Part shown: in pieces, positions 18,173 to 23,864 of the stretch | Numbering within the stretch: position 1 is the stretch's first letter | How the letters are laid out: the number at the start of each line of letters is the position of its first letter | Source of the DNA: a virus | DNA: 38,174 nucleotides | Strand: one strand, 5' to 3' | IMG/VR virus record: IMGVR_UViG_3300007734_000664 | Span: 1 to 38,174 of that record | The notes under the pieces: generated by a model | Databases searched by the model: none | The model's input: only the letters and a program-made list of their open reading frames with translations | What the model was told of the DNA's origin: nothing | Position numbers and translations under genes: made by a program

Positions 18173-18285
18173 CCATCCAGGCTCACTAGCACCTGGATGG
18201 CCTAACACCTGGATGATCGGTAGCACCTGTTAGCACCTGGATGGCCTAGCACCTGGATGGCGTAGCCGGTCCTAGCACTTGGATG
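18173..18285 (+). repeat. iteron-like cluster, TAGCACCTGGATGG
   Basis: Six direct copies of TAGCACCTGGATGG or close variants begin at 18187, 18203 (TAACACC variant), 18221 (truncated after CCTG), 18231, 18247 and 18273 (CACTT variant). An inverted CCATCCAGG at 18173-18181 faces the first copy. Start-to-start spacings are 16, 18, 10, 16 and 26 bases. Such clusters are usually binding sites for a replication initiator or a repressor. It lies exactly between the divergent arms. Confidence 0.85.
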
Positions 18286-18339: not shown

Positions 18340-18369
18340 TTGACAACGTCGGGCGATCCGTGCGACAGT
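18340..18369 (+). promoter_or_regulatory. candidate early promoter
   Basis: Consensus TTGACA at 18340-18345 with a weak -10 (GACAGT, 18364-18369, 18-base spacing), upstream of the first early gene. The 11 bases GTACAGAGGGC just before it recur near 22969, before the nuclease-like gene, so the pair may bind a common factor. Confidence 0.4.
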
Positions 18370-18384
18370 AGGCGCACGTTGAAC

Positions 18385-18401
18385 GCGGGCACAACGCCCG
18401 C
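18385..18401 (+). promoter_or_regulatory. leader hairpin 1
   Basis: GCGGGC-ACAAC-GCCCGC stem-loop (6-bp stem, 5-base loop), 20 bases before the ATG of the 55-aa gene. It sits between the candidate promoter and the ribosome site AAGGGG. First of a series of stem-loops placed before early genes. Confidence 0.7.
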
Positions 18402-18420
18402 CACTATTAAGGGGTTCACG

Positions 18421-18588
18421 ATGACGCCAAACATGATCACCTTGAATGACCTAGTAAGCCTCGCTCGGTTTGTCTCTGAGTTGGTACGGCAAGGCGTGAT
18501 GTTTACGGTATGGTCCGAAGACATTACAGACGGACGGATGCAAGTTGTGTTTACCGCGTGGCACGTAACCTTAACAGGTGGGTTCTGA
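18421..18588 (+). CDS. hypothetical small early protein (55 aa)
   Basis: Starts at the ATG giving MTPNMITLNDLVSLARFV, with AAGGGG eight bases upstream; in-frame sequence further upstream runs through the promoter and hairpin and is not coding. One amphipathic helix (8-24) then strands (GVMFTVWSEDITDGRMQVVFTAWHVT). First gene of the early arm. No family recognised. Confidence 0.65.
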   Translation: MTPNMITLNDLVSLARFVSELVRQGVMFTVWSEDITDGRMQVVFTAWHVTLTGGF

Positions 18589-18600
18589 CGTACGTTGACC

Positions 18601-18616
18601 GCGTCACTCCTGACGC
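18601..18616 (+). promoter_or_regulatory. leader hairpin 2
   Basis: GCGTCA-CTCC-TGACGC stem-loop (6-bp stem) before the 36-aa gene. The surrounding pattern ACCGCGTnAnTCCnGACGCnACC recurs before the 79-aa gene at 18801-18823. Confidence 0.7.
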
Positions 18617-18636
18617 TACCAATTGCGAGGGTAACG

Positions 18637-18747
18637 ATGCATAAAATCTTTGTGGAAATAGTCGCGGTCGGGGTAGGAATCGCGTGCCTCGGAGCGTGGG
18701 TAGGAATCTGTCTAGCGATCGCCGTATCGATGGAAGTAGCCCGATAG
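18637..18747 (+). CDS. 36-aa single-span membrane protein
   Basis: MHKIFVEIVAVGVGIACLGA and onward: one hydrophobic span (about residues 5-32, ending CLAIAVSM) and short polar ends. GAGGG lies 6 bases before the ATG and a hairpin lies upstream of that. Very short membrane proteins made early may act on the host envelope, but no function can be assigned. Same strand and spacing pattern as its neighbours, which supports it as a real gene. Confidence 0.6.
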   Translation: MHKIFVEIVAVGVGIACLGAWVGICLAIAVSMEVAR

Positions 18748-18753
18748 GTCGAA

Positions 18754-18819
18754 ACGGCGGGGTCGCCCCGTCGTCGCCTGGTAATGCCAGGCCTGATGAG
18801 ACCGCGTTATTCCCGACGC
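18754..18819 (+). promoter_or_regulatory. three consecutive leader hairpins before the 79-aa gene
   Basis: Stem 1: ACGGCGGGG-TCG-CCCCGTCGT (18754-18774, 9 bp with one G-T). Stem 2: GCCTGG-TAATG-CCAGGC (18776-18792). Stem 3: GCGTT-ATTCCC-GACGC (18804-18819), the same element type as leader hairpin 2. The 91-base gap thus folds almost completely before the ribosome site AGGAG. Confidence 0.7.
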
Positions 18820-18838
18820 CACCGACTAGGAGCAGACA

Positions 18839-19078
18839 ATGAGTCAACATTACAGCGATCCGGCACGAGCAGATGAGCAGTACGCCTTGCCGAATGTCGA
18901 GGTTTTCTACATGTCGCAGGGCGAGATAGACGGCCTAGTGGGCGACGATGCAGATACAGAGTTGCACGAACAGGGATGGTATTTCTGGTTTTGCTTCCCA
19001 GGCTGCCTGCCAGACTCCGATCCGATTGGGCCGTACGCGAGCGAGCAGCTGGCGATTGACGCGGCGAAGGAAGAGTAG
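18839..19078 (+). CDS. hypothetical acidic early protein (79 aa)
   Basis: 79 aa, acidic, with an aromatic cluster (EQGWYFWFCFPGCLPDSDPIGPY, residues 44-66) and a C-terminal SEQLAIDAAKEE helix typical of small phage proteins of unknown role. AGGAG lies 6 bases before the ATG. Preceded by three stem-loops. Confidence 0.7.
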   Translation: MSQHYSDPARADEQYALPNVEVFYMSQGEIDGLVGDDADTELHEQGWYFWFCFPGCLPDSDPIGPYASEQLAIDAAKEE

Positions 19079-19109
19079 CCATGAGACCAGATACCCCGAC
19101 ATAGCCCCC

Positions 19110-19138
19110 TTGCACTGATACCACGGACGTGGTATACA
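19110..19138 (+). promoter_or_regulatory. early promoter, copy A
   Basis: TTGCAC (19110-19115), 17-base spacer, TATACA (19133-19138). The spacer and -10 lie in ACGTGGTATACATATCTCAG (19127-19146), which recurs exactly at 20601-20620. ATACCACG-GA-CGTGGTAT around the spacer is an 8-bp inverted repeat and could be an operator. Confidence 0.65.
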
Positions 19139-19157
19139 TATCTCAGCGAACACCGCA

Positions 19158-19173
19158 TCGGACGGCCTTCCGA
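19158..19173 (+). promoter_or_regulatory. leader hairpin, CGGCC-loop type (copy a)
   Basis: TCGGA-CGGCCT-TCCGA, flanked by ACCGCA and CACCG, 20 bases before the ATG of the first 66-aa gene. One of five of this type with conserved loop start CGG and covarying stems. Confidence 0.75.
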
Positions 19174-19193
19174 CACCGCGAGAGTGAGACTCC

Positions 19194-19394
19194 ATGATCA
19201 AAAGTTTCAACACAAAATTGTCATTCTACGAGCGAGAAGAATTGATCACCTACAACGGCGTGTGGGGTTCTCTGTGGGTTCTGTGGGTTCGCAACCAATG
19301 CTTGGGCCGTACGTTTGTCCCCGGTTCTCGTCCGACACGGGAGACAGTCATGGAGTCTCTGTATCACTCCTGCGTACGCGACACCGACTACTAG
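19194..19394 (+). CDS. hypothetical early protein, 66-aa paralogue A
   Basis: 66 aa, MIKSFNTKLSFYEREELITY, then a Trp-rich GSLWVLWV segment and a FVPGSRPTRE motif, ending RDTDY. It is a paralogue of the 66-aa gene at 20881 (13 differences by my count). It has its own promoter copy and hairpin directly upstream. No family recognised; the duplication suggests dosage or diverged targets. Confidence 0.75.
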   Translation: MIKSFNTKLSFYEREELITYNGVWGSLWVLWVRNQCLGRTFVPGSRPTRETVMESLYHSCVRDTDY

Positions 19395-19402
19395 CACCCG
19401 CA

Positions 19403-19418
19403 TCGGACGGCCCTCCGA
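19403..19418 (+). promoter_or_regulatory. leader hairpin, CGGCC-loop type (copy b)
   Basis: TCGGA-CGGCCC-TCCGA just after the stop of paralogue A, within TAGCACCCGCA and CACCG flanks, 22 bases before the next ATG. Confidence 0.75.
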
Positions 19419-19440
19419 CACCGTGAAAACGAGGACAGAC

Positions 19441-19680
19441 ATGACGAGCTATACGATCACGACGATGCATTTCAGCGCAGATAGCCAAACACGGGAACAC
19501 GTGACGTTCTATACGTCCGGCGGGTACGTGACGTATACCGATCGGGACGGGAACGACCGGCAGATCTGCGACCGACTCCAGACCTCCGGCGACACGCTGC
19601 GCTCCAGCGAAACGGGATTGGCACGGACGATACGCCGTCACCTGCGTCTAGCACGCTACGACGCGCAGCGCGAGTACTAG
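19441..19680 (+). CDS. hypothetical early protein (79 aa)
   Basis: Start at the ATG giving MTSYTITTMHFSADSQTREH; the upstream in-frame stretch overlaps the previous gene and a hairpin and is rejected. GAGGA lies 7 bases before the ATG. Beta-rich first half (YTITTMHF, HVTFYTSGGYVTYT), Arg-rich helical end (TGLARTIRRHLRLARYDAQR). No family recognised. Confidence 0.7.
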   Translation: MTSYTITTMHFSADSQTREHVTFYTSGGYVTYTDRDGNDRQICDRLQTSGDTLRSSETGLARTIRRHLRLARYDAQREY

Positions 19681-19687
19681 CACCCGA

Positions 19688-19706
19688 GCCGGAGCGGTTC
19701 TCCGGC
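19688..19706 (+). promoter_or_regulatory. leader hairpin, CGG-loop type (copy c)
   Basis: GCCGGAG-CGGTT-CTCCGGC (7-bp stem), right after the preceding stop codon, flanked by CACCCGA and ACCG. The stem differs from copies a, b and d by compensating changes. Confidence 0.75.
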
Positions 19707-19764
19707 ACCGTTTACACAACCTCGCAGGGGGGGTATATCTCTCTCTGCCACCCGAAAGGCGCAT

Positions 19765-20523
19765 ATGCAAACCCTCAAGAAATACCGGTACTCTGATCCA
19801 GTCCCCTCTTCCGCCGTGGTATGGCGTGGACGGTCCGCCTTTGACGGATCGCCCATTGTGGCGATTGTCACCGGCTTACATGGTGATTCTAAGAATGGCA
19901 AGACCGGCCGGCGCCTGGCTCAACTCTTCATTCTTTGTGAGGACGCATCACCGCTTGATGCAATCATGATCGGCCTCGATGAGGGGATCTGTGGCGATTG
20001 TCCTGCCCGTGGAACGTACTGTTATGTACGCGTAGCTCAGTCTCCCACGGCGGTATATCACGCGTATACGCGGGGATCATATGTATCTATGCGCCCCGCT
20101 GATGTGGCGACGCACCTAGCGTCAAAGGGTATGGGGATTCGAATCGGCGCATATGGGGATGGTGCCGCCGTGCCTGTATCTGTTCTCGAATCGATCACGC
20201 ACGGTATTTTCCATACCGGCTACACTCACGCGTGGCGTAAACGTCCCGACCTGGCGCCGTTCCTCATGGCCTCGGCGGATAGTGCAGTGGATCAAACTGA
20301 CGCGTCAGAAAGTGGTTGGCGTACGTTTCGTGTGCGAAGAGCCACAGAAGATCTCGCAGTAGGGGAAATCGCATGTCCGGCGTCAGAAGAAGCAGGGCGG
20401 CGTACGAGCTGCGATAGTTGCGCGTTATGTGATGGAGCGCGGGACCAAGATCTGCGAAAGAGTATCGCGATCATTGTCCACGGCGCAAAGGTCGGCACGT
20501 TCCTGAAAATGGCTACAGTCTAA
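19765..20523 (+). CDS. conserved phage Cys-cluster protein, DUF7227-like (252 aa)
   Basis: 252 aa. The motifs LHGDSKNGKTGRRLAQLFIL, GICGDCPARGTYCYV (four Cys-rich positions about 71-83) and AVYHAYTRGSYV are shared with a widespread family of uncharacterised phage proteins. A second Cys cluster occurs late (CPASEEAGRRTSCDSCALC, about 207-225). The two clusters suggest metal or Fe-S binding; a distant relation to DUF5131/Gp37-type proteins is possible but unproved. It is the largest gene in the small-protein region and ends just before a perfect 20-bp palindrome. Confidence 0.75.
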   Translation: MQTLKKYRYSDPVPSSAVVWRGRSAFDGSPIVAIVTGLHGDSKNGKTGRRLAQLFILCEDASPLDAIMIGLDEGICGDCPARGTYCYVRVAQSPTAVYHAYTRGSYVSMRPADVATHLASKGMGIRIGAYGDGAAVPVSVLESITHGIFHTGYTHAWRKRPDLAPFLMASADSAVDQTDASESGWRTFRVRRATEDLAVGEIACPASEEAGRRTSCDSCALCDGARDQDLRKSIAIIVHGAKVGTFLKMATV

Positions 20524-20532
20524 TCAACCGGC

Positions 20533-20552
20533 GGGGGAGCATATGCTCCCCC
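20533..20552 (+). other. perfect 20-bp palindrome
   Basis: GGGGGAGCATATGCTCCCCC, 9 bases after the stop of the 252-aa gene. It can form a 10-bp stem with a minimal loop. There is no T-tract after it, so it is a possible processing site, attenuator or protein-binding site rather than a standard terminator. Confidence 0.8.
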
Positions 20553-20583
20553 ATTCCCAGAGGTATACGTCATGAGGCGGAAC

Positions 20584-20612
20584 TTGAAGTAGTCCCACAT
20601 ACGTGGTATACA
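20584..20612 (+). promoter_or_regulatory. early promoter, copy B
   Basis: TTGAAG (20584-20589), 17-base spacer, TATACA (20607-20612), inside the second exact copy of ACGTGGTATACATATCTCAG (20601-20620). It drives the 68-aa gene and paralogue B. Confidence 0.65.
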
Positions 20613-20630
20613 TATCTCAGTAGTACCGCA

Positions 20631-20646
20631 TCGGACGGCCATCCGA
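20631..20646 (+). promoter_or_regulatory. leader hairpin, CGGCC-loop type (copy d)
   Basis: TCGGA-CGGCCA-TCCGA with the same ACCGCA/CACCG flanks as copy a, 20 bases before the ATG of the 68-aa gene. Confidence 0.75.
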
Positions 20647-20666
20647 CACCGTGAAAGCGAGAACCT

Positions 20667-20873
20667 ATGGCATACGTTGACCCCAATTTCCCCAGCAAAA
20701 AGGCCTTCCTTGCGGCTATCAAGGCTGGTGCACGGCTAGCCGTTTACTCACCCGGCCCGTTTCCCGTCACACAGAATGGCCGGGTTTCAATTGAAGGTCC
20801 GCATTTCCCCCAGCCCCATAAATGGTACGCCTCAGCGATTGTCGCGGACGGCATTGTCGTGTTCGGCAAGTAG
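20667..20873 (+). CDS. conserved small phage protein (68 aa)
   Basis: MAYVDPNFPSKKAFLAAIKAG, then YSPGPFP, IEGPHFPQPHKWYA and VADGIVV: a pattern found in many small early proteins of phages of Gram-negative bacteria, with no assigned function. 68 aa is full length. It sits between promoter copy B with its hairpin and paralogue B, where the first module has no such gene. Confidence 0.8.
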   Translation: MAYVDPNFPSKKAFLAAIKAGARLAVYSPGPFPVTQNGRVSIEGPHFPQPHKWYASAIVADGIVVFGK

Positions 20874-20880
20874 GCGCGAC

Positions 20881-21081
20881 ATGATCAAAAGTTTCTACAC
20901 GAAGCTCTCTTTTTACGAGCGTCTAGAATCGATCACCTATAACGGCACGTTCGGATCTCTGTGGGTTCTGTGGGTGCAAAATGGGTTCTGTGGCCAAACC
21001 TTTGTGCCTGGTTCTCGTCCCACGCGGGAACAAGTCAGAGAGTCTCTGTATCACTCCGGGGTACGCGACACTGACTACTAG
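20881..21081 (+). CDS. hypothetical early protein, 66-aa paralogue B
   Basis: MIKSFYTKLSFYERLESITY and onward, with the same length and ends as paralogue A and 53 of 66 residues identical by my count. The start follows the previous stop by 7 bases with only a weak ribosome site (GGCGCG), so it may depend on coupling. A longer in-frame reading upstream runs antisense to logic through the 68-aa gene and is rejected. Confidence 0.75.
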   Translation: MIKSFYTKLSFYERLESITYNGTFGSLWVLWVQNGFCGQTFVPGSRPTREQVRESLYHSGVRDTDY

Positions 21082-21087
21082 CACTTG

Positions 21088-21103
21088 CGGGACGGCACTC
21101 CCG
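21088..21103 (+). promoter_or_regulatory. leader hairpin, CGG-loop type (copy e)
   Basis: CGGGA-CGGCAC-TCCCG after the stop of paralogue B. The flanks TAGCACTTG and CACCGTTTACAC match copy c. The stem covaries relative to the other copies. Confidence 0.75.
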
Positions 21104-21134
21104 GCACCGTTTACACGCAAACGAGGGACAGAAC

Positions 21135-21437
21135 ATGGCACTGAGCTTCTCTAAACTCACGACCGGCGCGTGGGGCATTCGCGGCACTAACATCACAATC
21201 GGTGTGCCGCTCGTAGTGACACGGAGAGATGGCTCGACAACCCGCGCAGTGGCTTCGCACATACTCTGGACGAGCGAGGATGGGATTCAACTCGCTGCTG
21301 TCGCAGAGCCTCCACGCAGCGCGTCCACGCACCGCAGCGGACGGCGTGGATGCAGTTGCACTGACTCCTGCTGCGCTCGTGGGTGTCGATGCGAGGCGCA
21401 GTGCAACTGCCAAGGTGGGCCAATTTACGATTGTTAA
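21135..21437 (+). CDS. hypothetical protein with Cys-rich tail (100 aa)
   Basis: N-terminal 60 residues are a small beta domain (KLTTGAWGIRG, GVPLVVTRRDGSTTRAVAS, WTSEDGIQLAAV) of a type common in phage early proteins. Residues 70-100 hold nine Cys (RGCSCTDSCCARGCRCEAQC, CQGG, DC), suggesting a zinc-binding tail. GAGGG precedes the ATG; hairpin copy e lies in the leader. Confidence 0.7.
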   Translation: MALSFSKLTTGAWGIRGTNITIGVPLVVTRRDGSTTRAVASHILWTSEDGIQLAAVAEPPRSASTHRSGRRGCSCTDSCCARGCRCEAQCNCQGGPIYDC

Positions 21438-21494
21438 TTCAGTAGAGAAATAACAAATGAATATCTTCCTAATCGTATCGACAGAGGTACAACG

Positions 21495-21770
21495 ATGAAA
21501 AGCCAACCCGCGCAGACGCAGGATCAGCGGTGGACAAAGCGTGTCACCGATCTATTGCTTAACAAGACGATTGTGGAAGTGGCGTTTATGTCCGATGCGG
21601 AAATGCGCGACCACGGCTGGGATTCTCGGGCCGTGATGTTTAGGCTGAGTAGTGGCGAATGGATCTATCCCTCACAAGACGATGAGGGAAACGGCGCAGG
21701 ATCGCTCTTTACGACGCATAAGCAGTGCTCGACTATTCCAGCGCTTGACCCCATAGAGGAACAGTTATGA
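21495..21770 (+). CDS. conserved small phage protein (91 aa)
   Basis: 91 aa. LLLNKTIVEVAFMSDAEMRDHGWDSRAVMFRLSSGEWIYPSQDDEGNGAG is a recognisable pattern of small phage early proteins (a beta-barrel-like fold with a PSxDDEGN motif). AGAGG lies before the ATG. The 57-base leader is AT-rich and lacks the hairpin seen before its upstream neighbours. Confidence 0.75.
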   Translation: MKSQPAQTQDQRWTKRVTDLLLNKTIVEVAFMSDAEMRDHGWDSRAVMFRLSSGEWIYPSQDDEGNGAGSLFTTHKQCSTIPALDPIEEQL

Positions 21771-21952
21771 CACCCAACACCGAGATTACGCGACTCGCTC
21801 AGGCACTGGTGATGGCCATTACGGCCCCGCAGGGACGCGAGGAGGACGCAGACCGGCTGGCGCAGCAGATGGCCCACGGGATGGCCGCAGAGGCCATCGC
21901 AGCGGCCCAGGAACTGGCCCTGTACGACCTGCAAGATCGGCTGGGGGCGTGA
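21767..21952 (+). CDS. hypothetical small helical protein (61 aa)
   Basis: 61 aa, Ala/Glu/Gln-rich and helical throughout (LAQALVMAITAPQGREEDADRLAQQMAHGMAAEAIAAAQELALYDLQDRL). Starts with an ATGA overlap and ends with a TGATG overlap, so it is in a tightly coupled run. Function unknown. Confidence 0.65.
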   Translation: MTPNTEITRLAQALVMAITAPQGREEDADRLAQQMAHGMAAEAIAAAQELALYDLQDRLGA

Positions 21953-22158
21953 TGATTATCCGAATCCAAGACGGCGCAGACTGGAACATTGCGCGAGTGT
22001 GTAAACGTCACAAGTGGGCGTCAATCGAGTACACAGAGGAAGCGAGACTGTCGGAACCGGAACCGTGCCCCATGTGCGAGGCGCTCACCGACGACGCATC
22101 CGCGATGAGATATCTCGTCCACAAAGAGGCGGGACGGCTGGCGGGGGTGACAGATTGA
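21952..22158 (+). CDS. hypothetical protein with CxxC (68 aa)
   Basis: Start chosen at the ATG overlapping the previous stop (TGATG). Residues 17-43 contain C-x(n)-CPMC, which with His20 or Cys could form a small metal site. The C-terminal helix (ALTDDASAMRYLVHKEAGRLAG) is charged. No family recognised. Confidence 0.65.
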   Translation: MIIRIQDGADWNIARVCKRHKWASIEYTEEARLSEPEPCPMCEALTDDASAMRYLVHKEAGRLAGVTD

Positions 22159-22238
22159 CGCGCACGACGGCGATACTCTGCGGGGGCTTGATGGGCTGGG
22201 TGATCGGGGCGCTGCTGGTGCTGGAAGGGGTGTTTTGA
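22155..22238 (+). CDS. 27-aa membrane miniprotein, TTG start
   Basis: The TTG at 22155 overlaps the previous stop (TTGA) and gives MTRTTAILCGGLMGWVIGAL-LVLEGVF, one hydrophobic span. GGCGGGGG lies upstream. Non-ATG start and short length make it uncertain, but it fills the gap between two genes exactly. Confidence 0.4.
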   Translation: MTRTTAILCGGLMGWVIGALLVLEGVF

Positions 22239-22239
22239 C

Positions 22240-22422
22240 ATGGACGGCTATACCTGGCTGACGGGCCACGCCATCTCCGGCACGTTGGCGGCACTGGCCA
22301 TCGCCCTGACCGTGGCGATCACGGTCGGAGCGTTAGACGCGCTGATCGAGTGGGTGGCGCTGCGGCAGGGCGAGGACTGGCGCGGCGAGGGGAACACGCC
22401 GCCTTCTCGCTGGTGGCGTTGA
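22240..22422 (+). CDS. 60-aa membrane protein
   Basis: MDGYTWLTGHAISGTLAALAIALTVAITVGALDALIEWVALRQ: one hydrophobic span about residues 10-32, then a charged, Trp/Arg-ending tail likely in the cytoplasm. GAAGGGG lies 9 bases before the ATG. Last gene of the small-protein region. A role at the host membrane is possible; no family recognised. Confidence 0.65.
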   Translation: MDGYTWLTGHAISGTLAALAIALTVAITVGALDALIEWVALRQGEDWRGEGNTPPSRWWR

Positions 22423-22434
22423 CCACCGTTTCCA

Positions 22435-22497
22435 CGCCCCAGATGTAACCGTACACAATCCCGTCGGATCTGTGCGGTTACATAATCCATTGGGGCG
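22435..22497. other. nested inverted repeat
   Basis: Outer arms CGCCCCA (22435-22441) and TGGGGCG (22491-22497); inner arms ATGTAACCG (22443-22451) and CGGTTACAT (22475-22483), with ACACA/TGTG also able to pair. The double symmetry is strong for 63 bases and suggests an RNA structure or a dimer binding site. Confidence 0.75.
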
Positions 22498-22532
22498 GCA
22501 GTTCGTGCTAGAGTAGCGCCCAGACACAAGAA

Positions 22533-22563
22533 AAGACGCCAGCCCGGCTAGAGCTGGCGTCTT
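22533..22563 (-). terminator. Rho-independent terminator on the minus strand
   Basis: AAGACGCCAGC (22533-22543) and GCTGGCGTCTT (22553-22563) form a perfect 11-bp stem with a 9-base loop. Read on the minus strand, the stem is followed by TTTTCTT; on the plus strand there is no U-tract. It therefore looks like a terminator for leftward transcription, although no leftward gene is evident nearby. Confidence 0.6.
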
Positions 22564-22995
22564 GGATACGGCGATAGGGACTCGCTATACCGTGAGAGGA
22601 GTTCATCCTACCACGGTCCCACCTTCGCCCCGTCCCGACAACCTTCTGGCCCACGCGAGTCACTCACGCACGATGCGAGTGGACCGATCCTGGCTGGGGT
22701 GGATTCACAGGCCGCAAGGTCTGCCCAGCGGCTCTCGGACATGCTCCGGCGAGGGGGCGACGTGCCACGCCTCACGACCCTCGACCATCGGCTCACGGGG
22801 ACTGATCCCCGGTCAGTCGGACATGCCGCAGACCTAAAGGATGATCGGGTGTGGGCATCAGTGCCAGCAGTCACACGCGAGGCCAAGGGGGTCTGGCGAG
22901 AGGTCGGCCATCGAGGCCGTTCACCGGGGGTTCTCTCTACAGAGAGGAGCCAAGGGTAAGAGGCGTACGTACAGAGGGCGTGTCAAGATAGGCCC

Positions 22996-23493
22996 ATGGA
23001 CATGACGTTGAACGCCGCTGAACAGAAATTAGCGCGCTTCCTTGCCCTGTCGAGAACCAGTAGCAACCGACAGGCCGGTGTCACCAACGCCAAACGGGCC
23101 GACCTGACCGACGCCGAGATCGACCTTGACGGCGTGGGAGCAGAACTGGCGTGGTGTCGGCTGGCGAACGTCTACCCCGACCTGACCCTCTCGCCCCGTA
23201 GCGGGGGCGCAGACGCGACGTGGGCCGGACGCACGGTGGACGTGAAAACGACGCGCTACGCCACCGGCAAGCTCATTGCCGTGCCGTCCAAAGCACATGC
23301 ACCCTGCGACCTGTATGCCCTGATGATCGGGACGTTCCCGACCTACCGGTTCGTCGGCATGGCCACGGCTGATCACCTATTGGCCGCTGAGAATATCCGC
23401 AACCTGGGACACGGGCCGACGTATACCCTCGCGCAGGACGCCTTGACGCCGCCCAGCGTGTTACACTTGTCGCATGGAACCTCAACGACTTAG
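22996..23493 (+). CDS. putative PD-(D/E)XK nuclease (165 aa)
   Basis: 165 aa. A restriction-endonuclease-like core is visible: Glu50 in DGVGAELAW, Asp73 in GGADATWAGR, and Asp82-x-Lys84 in TVDVKTTR. It is followed by strand CDLYALMIG and the YRFVGMATADHL segment common in phage-encoded nuclease-fold proteins. It overlaps the HTH gene by 20 bases. It could degrade host DNA or process replication intermediates; specificity is unknown. Confidence 0.6.
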   Translation: MDMTLNAAEQKLARFLALSRTSSNRQAGVTNAKRADLTDAEIDLDGVGAELAWCRLANVYPDLTLSPRSGGADATWAGRTVDVKTTRYATGKLIAVPSKAHAPCDLYALMIGTFPTYRFVGMATADHLLAAENIRNLGHGPTYTLAQDALTPPSVLHLSHGTSTT

Positions 23494-23734
23494 GCGAGAT
23501 GCATGGCCCCCGAGCTGGATCAAGCATCTCCGGCGCGACATTCTGAAGGAAAACGTGTCGGCCTTTGCGGCCCACTGGTGCAGTGAGAAGGGATTGGCCT
23601 TCTCCGCACGCACGGTGGAGGCGTGGGAGCAGGGCCGACGCACCCCGCCGCTGTTTGTCCGCATGGCGATGACGAAAAGCGTGGTGCGTCTTCGTCTGAA
23701 GGGGCATGTCATTCGATTGCCCGGTCAGCCGTAA
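23474..23734 (+). CDS. XRE-like helix-turn-helix regulator candidate (86 aa)
   Basis: 86 aa, basic. The segment FSARTVEAWEQGRRTPPLFV (43-62) is the recognition-helix end of an XRE/Cro-type HTH domain; the preceding helix (WIKHLRRDILKENVSAFAAHWCSEKG) would be helices 1-2. The first ten residues are Arg-rich. A TTGACA promoter inside a GC inverted repeat lies just downstream and could be its operator. No partner repressor gene is seen in divergent orientation. Confidence 0.6.
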   Translation: MEPQRLRRDAWPPSWIKHLRRDILKENVSAFAAHWCSEKGLAFSARTVEAWEQGRRTPPLFVRMAMTKSVVRLRLKGHVIRLPGQP

Positions 23735-23738
23735 CACC

Positions 23739-23775
23739 GGGGGGGTTGACATCCCCCCTGCGACAGACGTAGGAT
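23739..23775 (+). promoter_or_regulatory. promoter with -35 inside an inverted repeat
   Basis: TTGACA (23746-23751) and TAGGAT (23770-23775) with an 18-base spacer. The -35 box is in the loop of GGGGGG/CCCCCC arms (23740-23758), an arrangement suited to repression. It drives the regulator and recombination block. Confidence 0.6.
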
Positions 23776-23782
23776 GACCTCA

Positions 23783-23800
23783 CCGTCCAATCCCGGACGG
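23783..23800 (+). promoter_or_regulatory. leader hairpin before the leader peptide
   Basis: CCGTCC-AATCCC-GGACGG (6-bp stem) followed by CACC and then GAGGAG. Same layout as the hairpins in the 18.4-21.1 kb region. Confidence 0.65.
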
Positions 23801-23819: not shown

Positions 23820-23864
23820 ATGTTTACACATTCAGCACGACTACGGAACGGGGGGCATCAGTGA
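23820..23864 (+). CDS. 14-aa leader peptide candidate
   Basis: ATG with GAGGAG 6 bases upstream encodes MFTHSARLRNGGHQ and stops with a TGA that overlaps the next ATG (TGATG). The best ribosome site in the area belongs to this short frame, so it probably controls translation of the regulator gene by coupling. Confidence 0.45.
   Translation: MFTHSARLRNGGHQ

Follow-up and report, generated by a model that had tools for sequence, protein, structure and literature searches.

The window analysed here is a whole IMG/VR virus record (IMGVR_UViG_3300007734_000664) of 38,174 nucleotides (nt), with terminase, portal and head genes of the podovirus type on the - strand and, starting at 18.4 kb, small early genes on the + strand. 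Its subject is a family of short RNA hairpins predicted in the leaders of these early genes, whose stem letters vary while their pairing and their distance to the start codon are kept. A DNA similarity search of the early region against the deposited phages matched none, and the closest terminase among these phages is that of EBPR podovirus 1 (49%), while the terminase identity of IMG/VR relatives reaches up to 97%. Relative loci, numbered below with the prefix L, were gathered via the terminase, a 252-amino-acid (aa) early protein and the Erf protein; two small early proteins were also searched for close relatives, but yielded no useful loci.

In the window, nine early genes on the + strand have a leader hairpin (arms in capitals, loop in lower case). 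The first, GCGGGC.acaac.GCCCGC (18385-18401, tail CACT), lies 19 nt before the ATG at 18421, with TTGACA at 18340 just upstream, and the same leader is present in L103 and L084. It is followed by GCGTCA.ctcc.TGACGC (18601-18616, tail TACC, 20 nt to the ATG at 18637) and GCGTT.attccc.GACGC (18804-18819, tail CACC, 19 nt to the ATG at 18839). Five hairpins of a second class have a loop beginning with CGG. Three of them share the stem TCGGA/TCCGA, namely those with the loops cggcct (19158-19173, 20 nt to the ATG at 19194), cggccc (19403-19418, 22 nt to the ATG at 19441; the L084 orthologue reads GCCGGGA.cggtac.TCCCGGC) and cggcca (20631-20646, 20 nt to the ATG at 20667; orthologue in L103). The other two are GCCGGAG.cggtt.CTCCGGC (19688-19706), whose tail ACCGTTTACAC leads over 58 nt to the ATG at 19765, and CGGGA.cggcac.TCCCG (21088-21103), with the tail GCACCGTTTACAC and 31 nt to the ATG at 21135. 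The last hairpin, CCGTCC.aatccc.GGACGG (23783-23800, tail CACC), stands 19 nt before the ATG at 23820.

Eight of the nine were returned by a scan of the + strand between 18300 and 24300 for hairpins of at least 5 base pairs (bp) directly before YACC, a ribosome-binding site and a start codon, the ninth being that at 18385 with its CACT tail; 200 dinucleotide shuffles gave a mean of 0.3 and a maximum of 3. The same scan found none on the opposite strand, and the late region and the rest of the genome stayed at background. When the rule was fixed at 17-23 nt, 7 matches were obtained on the whole + strand, all in the early region (300 shuffles: mean 0.81, maximum 6). No such hairpin precedes the genes at 20881 (a paralogue of 19194) and 21495, nor the translationally overlapping genes. 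The 66-aa early gene is duplicated (19193-19397 and 20880-21084, 80% DNA identity), with a hairpin leader before the first copy only.

The hairpins named by a first-pass annotation of this DNA were thus all recovered in excess of shuffled sequence, and several of its details needed revision. Its statement that most early genes have a stem-loop holds for the nine genes above and fails for 20881, 21495 and the overlapping genes, and its spacing of 15-40 bases before the ATG is corrected to 19-31 nt, with 58 nt for gene 19765. The five CGG-loop elements had been given the flanks CCGCA and CACCG; CACCG is present in 5/5, but CCGCA only in the three TCGGA copies. Paired change of stem bases was likewise found between different leaders, but not among the three TCGGA stems, which are identical.

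To describe the anatomy of the element, 38 leaders from nine records were collected by eye, and these contained 31 different stems of 5-13 bp. In the 30 leaders of the main type and the short-tailed CGG class, the 3' base of the hairpin lies on average 20.2 nt from the start codon, with 19-21 nt in 24/30; eight leaders with a longer, GTTTACAC-like tail have 25-31 nt. When 254 possible starts were scanned without selection, the distances again peaked at 19-22 nt, whereas two control sets had no peak. Directly 3' of the stem stands YAC(C/T). Two loop classes are conserved, A..C in the main type and CGG. Read with a 5-bp stem, main-type loops almost always start with A and carry C as their fourth letter, and among nine non-orthologous main-type leaders these letters occur in 8/9 and 9/9, respectively. 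The CGG class keeps both CGG and the tail CACCG in several genomes. A pseudoknot between the CGG loop and a CCG in its tail was considered unlikely, as a connection of only 1-3 nt would be left to bridge a stem of 5-7 bp. In some leaders of L045 and L049, stems of 8-11 bp are capped by UNCG tetraloops (ttcg, tacg, tccg), which are very stable.

The first-pass annotation had proposed a covariance search, which we ran with a model built from the relatives' leaders. Since MAFFT misaligned hairpins of unequal length, the model was limited to 16-nt hairpins, and the training set consisted of seven such leaders, taken from relatives only and standing before different genes. In these seven, 100% of the cells were paired, a figure that is partly circular because the leaders had been found by pairing, and 4/5 pairs were changed on both sides, a variety of pair types that is less affected by this circularity. 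The covariation score was 0.75, compared with 0.17 for shuffles and at most 0.15 for slid versions. The orthologous 23783 leader, recognised in 6 records by its promoter and downstream gene, had 92% of cells paired and 3 pairs changed on both sides, while slid versions were 31-53% paired. Run unfiltered on the window, the model returned as its top five the leaders at 18598, 18801, 19155, 19400 and 20628 (E 0.002-0.009; the hairpin at 18601-18616 scored 24.3 bits with model R1), while 23780 ranked sixth and 18382 ninth, among the background. The three TCGGA matches are not fully independent, since the training set includes an orthologue of the 20631 leader; the two GCGT matches precede genes different from those of their nearest training leaders.

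The same architecture with other stems was found several times each in L103, L084, L049 and L045, and L105, L026, L024 and L127 have one or a few hairpin leaders each. In the distant relatives L037, L065, L069 and L081, the same scan gave leader hairpins only at background level, and L065 has its own repeated leader instead, which is unstructured and of the form CGAAC..GGAGG. We also scanned all viral contigs, blind to pairing, for the tail CACCGTTTACAC..ACGAGG; matches fell only within the lineage of the window, and a hairpin stood directly upstream in all of the matching contigs that were read. Scanning for the CGG hairpin as a DNA pattern returned 20 contigs, about the chance expectation by a rough estimate, of which 2 were true relatives. 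A single match lay in a 5.7-kb contig of a Spartobacteria metagenome-assembled genome, which is too weak a link for a host to be named. The predicted hairpin leaders recur across a group of uncultured phages, before most free-standing early genes.

Just upstream of the 18804 hairpin, and overlooked in the first-pass annotation, lies a predicted type II hammerhead ribozyme (18747-18803, + strand), detected both by Rfam family RF02276 and by our own architecture scan. The Rfam search matched 18747-18810 with an E-value of 0.00085 for 151 nt searched; the scores are 26.7 bits in the window and 29.4 bits in L103, corresponding to E 5e-5 and 3e-6 per record. The layout is GGTC-GAAA-CGGCGGGG-tcg-CCCCGTCG-TC^-GCCTGG-taatg-CCAGGC-CTGATGA-GACC, with a complete core. 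Of the catalytic elements CUGANGA, GAAA and an NUH site, the first is present as CTGATGA at 18793, the second within GGTCGAAAC at 18747 and the third as GTC^G, placing the predicted cleavage at 18775/18776. Stems I (6-7 bp) and III (8 bp) are closed and stem II (4 bp) is open. In L103, stem III has 7 bp with changed letters that still pair (CGGGGGA-ccg-TCCCCCG). Our architecture scan of all gathered loci found the ribozyme only in the window, in L103 and in further copies of that record and its near twin, and 14 control genomes gave no type II hammerhead match; PaP3 and EBPR podovirus 1 were without one. Among the 4227 Rfam families, none besides the hammerhead matched. In both genomes the ribozyme directly abuts a leader hairpin, in one leader per genome, and the gene behind the pair encodes a 79-aa protein in the window and the 252-aa protein in L103. 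By eye, loop I (UAAUG) could pair with CGUUA of the 5' arm of the leader hairpin in the window, and with one mismatch in L103; a pseudoknot joining loop I to the sequence past stem II is frequent, though not universal, in this ribozyme type (PMC3088659).

Some hairpins follow a promoter-like sequence (18340, 19110, 20584 and 23746), and the others stand 6-12 nt past a stop codon. A sigma-70-like promoter, TTGCAC-17-TATACA (19110-19138, + strand), which was not returned by a consensus promoter scan, contains the palindrome ATACCACGgaCGTGGTAT in its spacer and belongs to repeat D8 together with a second copy, TTGAAG-17-TATACA (20584-20612, + strand). At the promoter TTGACA-18-TAGGAT (23746-23775, + strand) the hairpin stem starts 7 nt past the -10 box, and it does so at about this distance in 6/6 records, so that the stem of the 23783 leader begins where transcription would be expected to start.

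Several DNA repeats were noticed near these leaders. Spacer palindromes of the form CCACG..CGTGG occur in the promoter-like sequences at 19110-19138 and 20584-20612 of the window and at about 4000-4030 of L103, upstream of hairpin leaders, and are possible operators. An inverted repeat, CGGGGGGG/CCCCCCTG, at 23738-23760 of the window holds the -35 box TTGACA in its loop. Repeats of TAGCACCTGGATGGCC lie at 18187-18275, upstream of the first early promoter, where L103 and L084 have other repeats of the GTCAA..TTGACGG type; both kinds may possibly be iterons or repressor sites. The octamer GTTTACAC/GTGTAAAC occurs 23 times within 12.6 kb of L049, 10 times in L084, 5 times in L103 and 6 times in the window; most of the other loci counted had no copy or hardly any. 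GTTTACAC also belongs to the tail of CGG-class leaders; as part of the CGG-class element this spacer was rejected, the repeated octamer occurring elsewhere in the same genomes.

Two other RNAs were noted. About 550 nt at 22440-22990 (+ strand) without a convincing gene are conserved in L103, L084 and L129; RNAalifold predicted 161 pairs from three sequences, 29 of them changed on both sides, and no Rfam match above threshold was obtained, so the segment is probably a large structured RNA. L049 has a tRNA-Gln gene at 2142-2215.

Covariance, recurrence in related phages and near-fixed spacing to the start codon support the earlier proposal that the hairpins are RNA elements acting in cis and distributed over the small-gene region. 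What is kept in the predicted element is the pairing, the loop class, the tail and the distance to the start, while the stem letters, the upstream promoter or stop codon and the downstream gene are free, a pattern that speaks for an element acting as RNA at each cistron border. We tentatively favour, with confidence a little short of even, a portable leader cassette before free-standing early genes, a cistron-border RNA that would act as insulator and 5' stabiliser. The cassette would run from the hairpin through YAC(C/T) and a short A/C-rich linker to the Shine-Dalgarno sequence and the start codon, so that the hairpin in the mRNA would form a fixed border just outside the region occupied by the 30S ribosomal subunit at the start codon. 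This border would lie near the 5' end of the transcript after a promoter, or a few nt past the stop codon of the preceding gene, and would most likely make each small cistron an independent translation unit, acting on translation start, transcript stability or both. In one leader the type II hammerhead would cleave the transcript 28 nt before the hairpin and thereby create a new 5' end. The UNCG loops on 8-11 bp stems in L045 and L049 are as expected if stability is what counts.

Several points weigh against this reading. The loop letters in most leaders are more conserved than stability alone requires. That the hairpin exposes the ribosome site was tried as an explanation and set aside: shuffling the hairpin letters shifted predicted accessibility only slightly, and with so small a predicted gain in exposure simple unmasking is insufficient. 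Neither hammerhead, in the window or L103, reaches the RF02276 gathering score of 37 bits, so that activity is a prediction. Single hairpins, placed further upstream, gave no rise in translation on their own in one in vitro study (PMC11087576).

A structural role in translation start and stability is ranked first, and a protein-bound translational operator second because of the conserved loop letters. Here a phage or host RNA-binding protein would read loop and tail, block or help the 30S subunit and switch the early genes as a set. Loop classes conserved over variable stems (A in 8/9, C in 9/9; CGG with CACCG in several genomes) are what such a protein would leave, and the spacing would set it against the ribosome site; the UNCG loops in some leaders of L045 and L049 fit poorly, and no early protein gave a Pfam match to an RNA-binding protein. 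We regard this switch as unlikely, though the strongest of the rivals. We consider it improbable that the hairpins serve RNA processing or 3'-end protection, by cuts between cistrons or an exonuclease stop at the end of the preceding gene. Several do stand 6-12 nt after a stop codon, and transcript processing, as first proposed, is directly supported in a single leader through its predicted hammerhead; but promoter-proximal leaders have no gene just before them, the spacing is kept relative to the next start codon, and, as RNase III substrates, 5-8 bp stems are short. Recombination joints, in which homogenised leader repeats would allow exchange of small genes with folding secondary, are more doubtful still: the hammerhead-hairpin leader before a 79-aa gene in the window and the 252-aa gene in L103, and the unstructured repeated leader of L065, would suit them, but they need equal sequence, and the 38 leaders have 31 different stems with pairing kept. 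Least credible is action at the DNA level, whether as operators or as N4-type hairpin promoters, for although inverted repeats do lie upstream of genes, the stem sequence is not conserved, the loops are 4-8 nt, the elements occur on one strand only and ordinary promoter-like sequences lie upstream in four leaders.

If the favoured border reading is true, these phages hold a natural repeated leader in which pairing and start distance are kept and sequence is free, a ready-made variant series for studying how initiation and decay respond to a hairpin that borders the ribosome site. The hammerhead beside a leader hairpin would also suggest a possible job for phage hammerheads, that of setting the 5' end of the downstream cistron. 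A more specific version, which we put forward as speculation, is that a portable RNA border serves this phage lineage to make its free-standing early genes independent units of expression: a covarying hairpin whose loop is recognised and which sits about 20 nt ahead of the start codon. Ribozymes would have been recruited to free it, and engineered insulators built from a ribozyme and a hairpin would have a counterpart in nature, whose reader may be a phage protein or the ribosome itself.

Comparable elements are known in part. The E. coli ompA mRNA has a stabilising stem-loop at or near the 5' end of the transcript, upstream of the ribosome-binding site; the hairpins here differ in occurring in many copies per genome, also within operons, and at a near-fixed distance from the start codon. 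Repeated leader hairpins, unrelated in sequence to those here and differently spaced, also occur in other phages that encode a homologue of the 252-aa protein. L117 has TTCGGA.cttg.TCCGAA 17-20 nt before a start, and the phages with distant homologues, L117 and L118-L122, have leader hairpins of their own (TTCGGA.cttg.TCCGAA; GCGCC..GGCGC), several nearer the start codon. Leader hairpins may thus be common in phages with many small genes. The T4 gene 43 translational operator is likewise a hairpin upstream of a start codon with conserved loop letters, but it serves one gene, lies about 40 nt upstream and has a known bound protein (PMC3014915). The first-pass parallel with mycobacteriophage start-associated sequences (SAS), similar in idea and different in sequence, was a fair one. 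Cluster K SAS and extended SAS (ESAS) are sequence-conserved repeats at translation starts of non-structural genes with larger upstream gaps, and about half of the SAS have an inverted repeat just upstream that resembles the leaders here (PMC3203893). In cluster K, however, the SAS is a fixed 13-nt sequence, GGGATAGGAGCCC, which was absent from every leader read, and the ESAS is a sequence-conserved 17-bp inverted repeat, whereas the stems here are mostly 5-8 bp, covary and are free in their letters, with 31 distinct ones in 38 leaders. The predicted ribozyme shares the core, stem order, open stem II and closed stems I and III of type II hammerheads (RF02276; PMC3088659), and differs from the family in its scores (26.7 and 29.4 bits, below 37) and its place directly against a leader hairpin. 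That arrangement is predicted from sequence to resemble RiboJ-type insulators, in which a self-cleaving hammerhead and, behind it, a hairpin of 23 nt precede the ribosome-binding site and raise expression (PMC6206723); RiboJ is engineered, whereas the version here is natural, of type II and found in two genomes, in a single leader of each, and their remaining leaders have only the hairpin. The parts are of known kinds, and their combination is a new variation on them: with its hairpins no more than background in the more distant relatives, it joins YAC(C/T) and a spacing of 19-21 nt to two loop classes and a hammerhead that abuts the hairpin.

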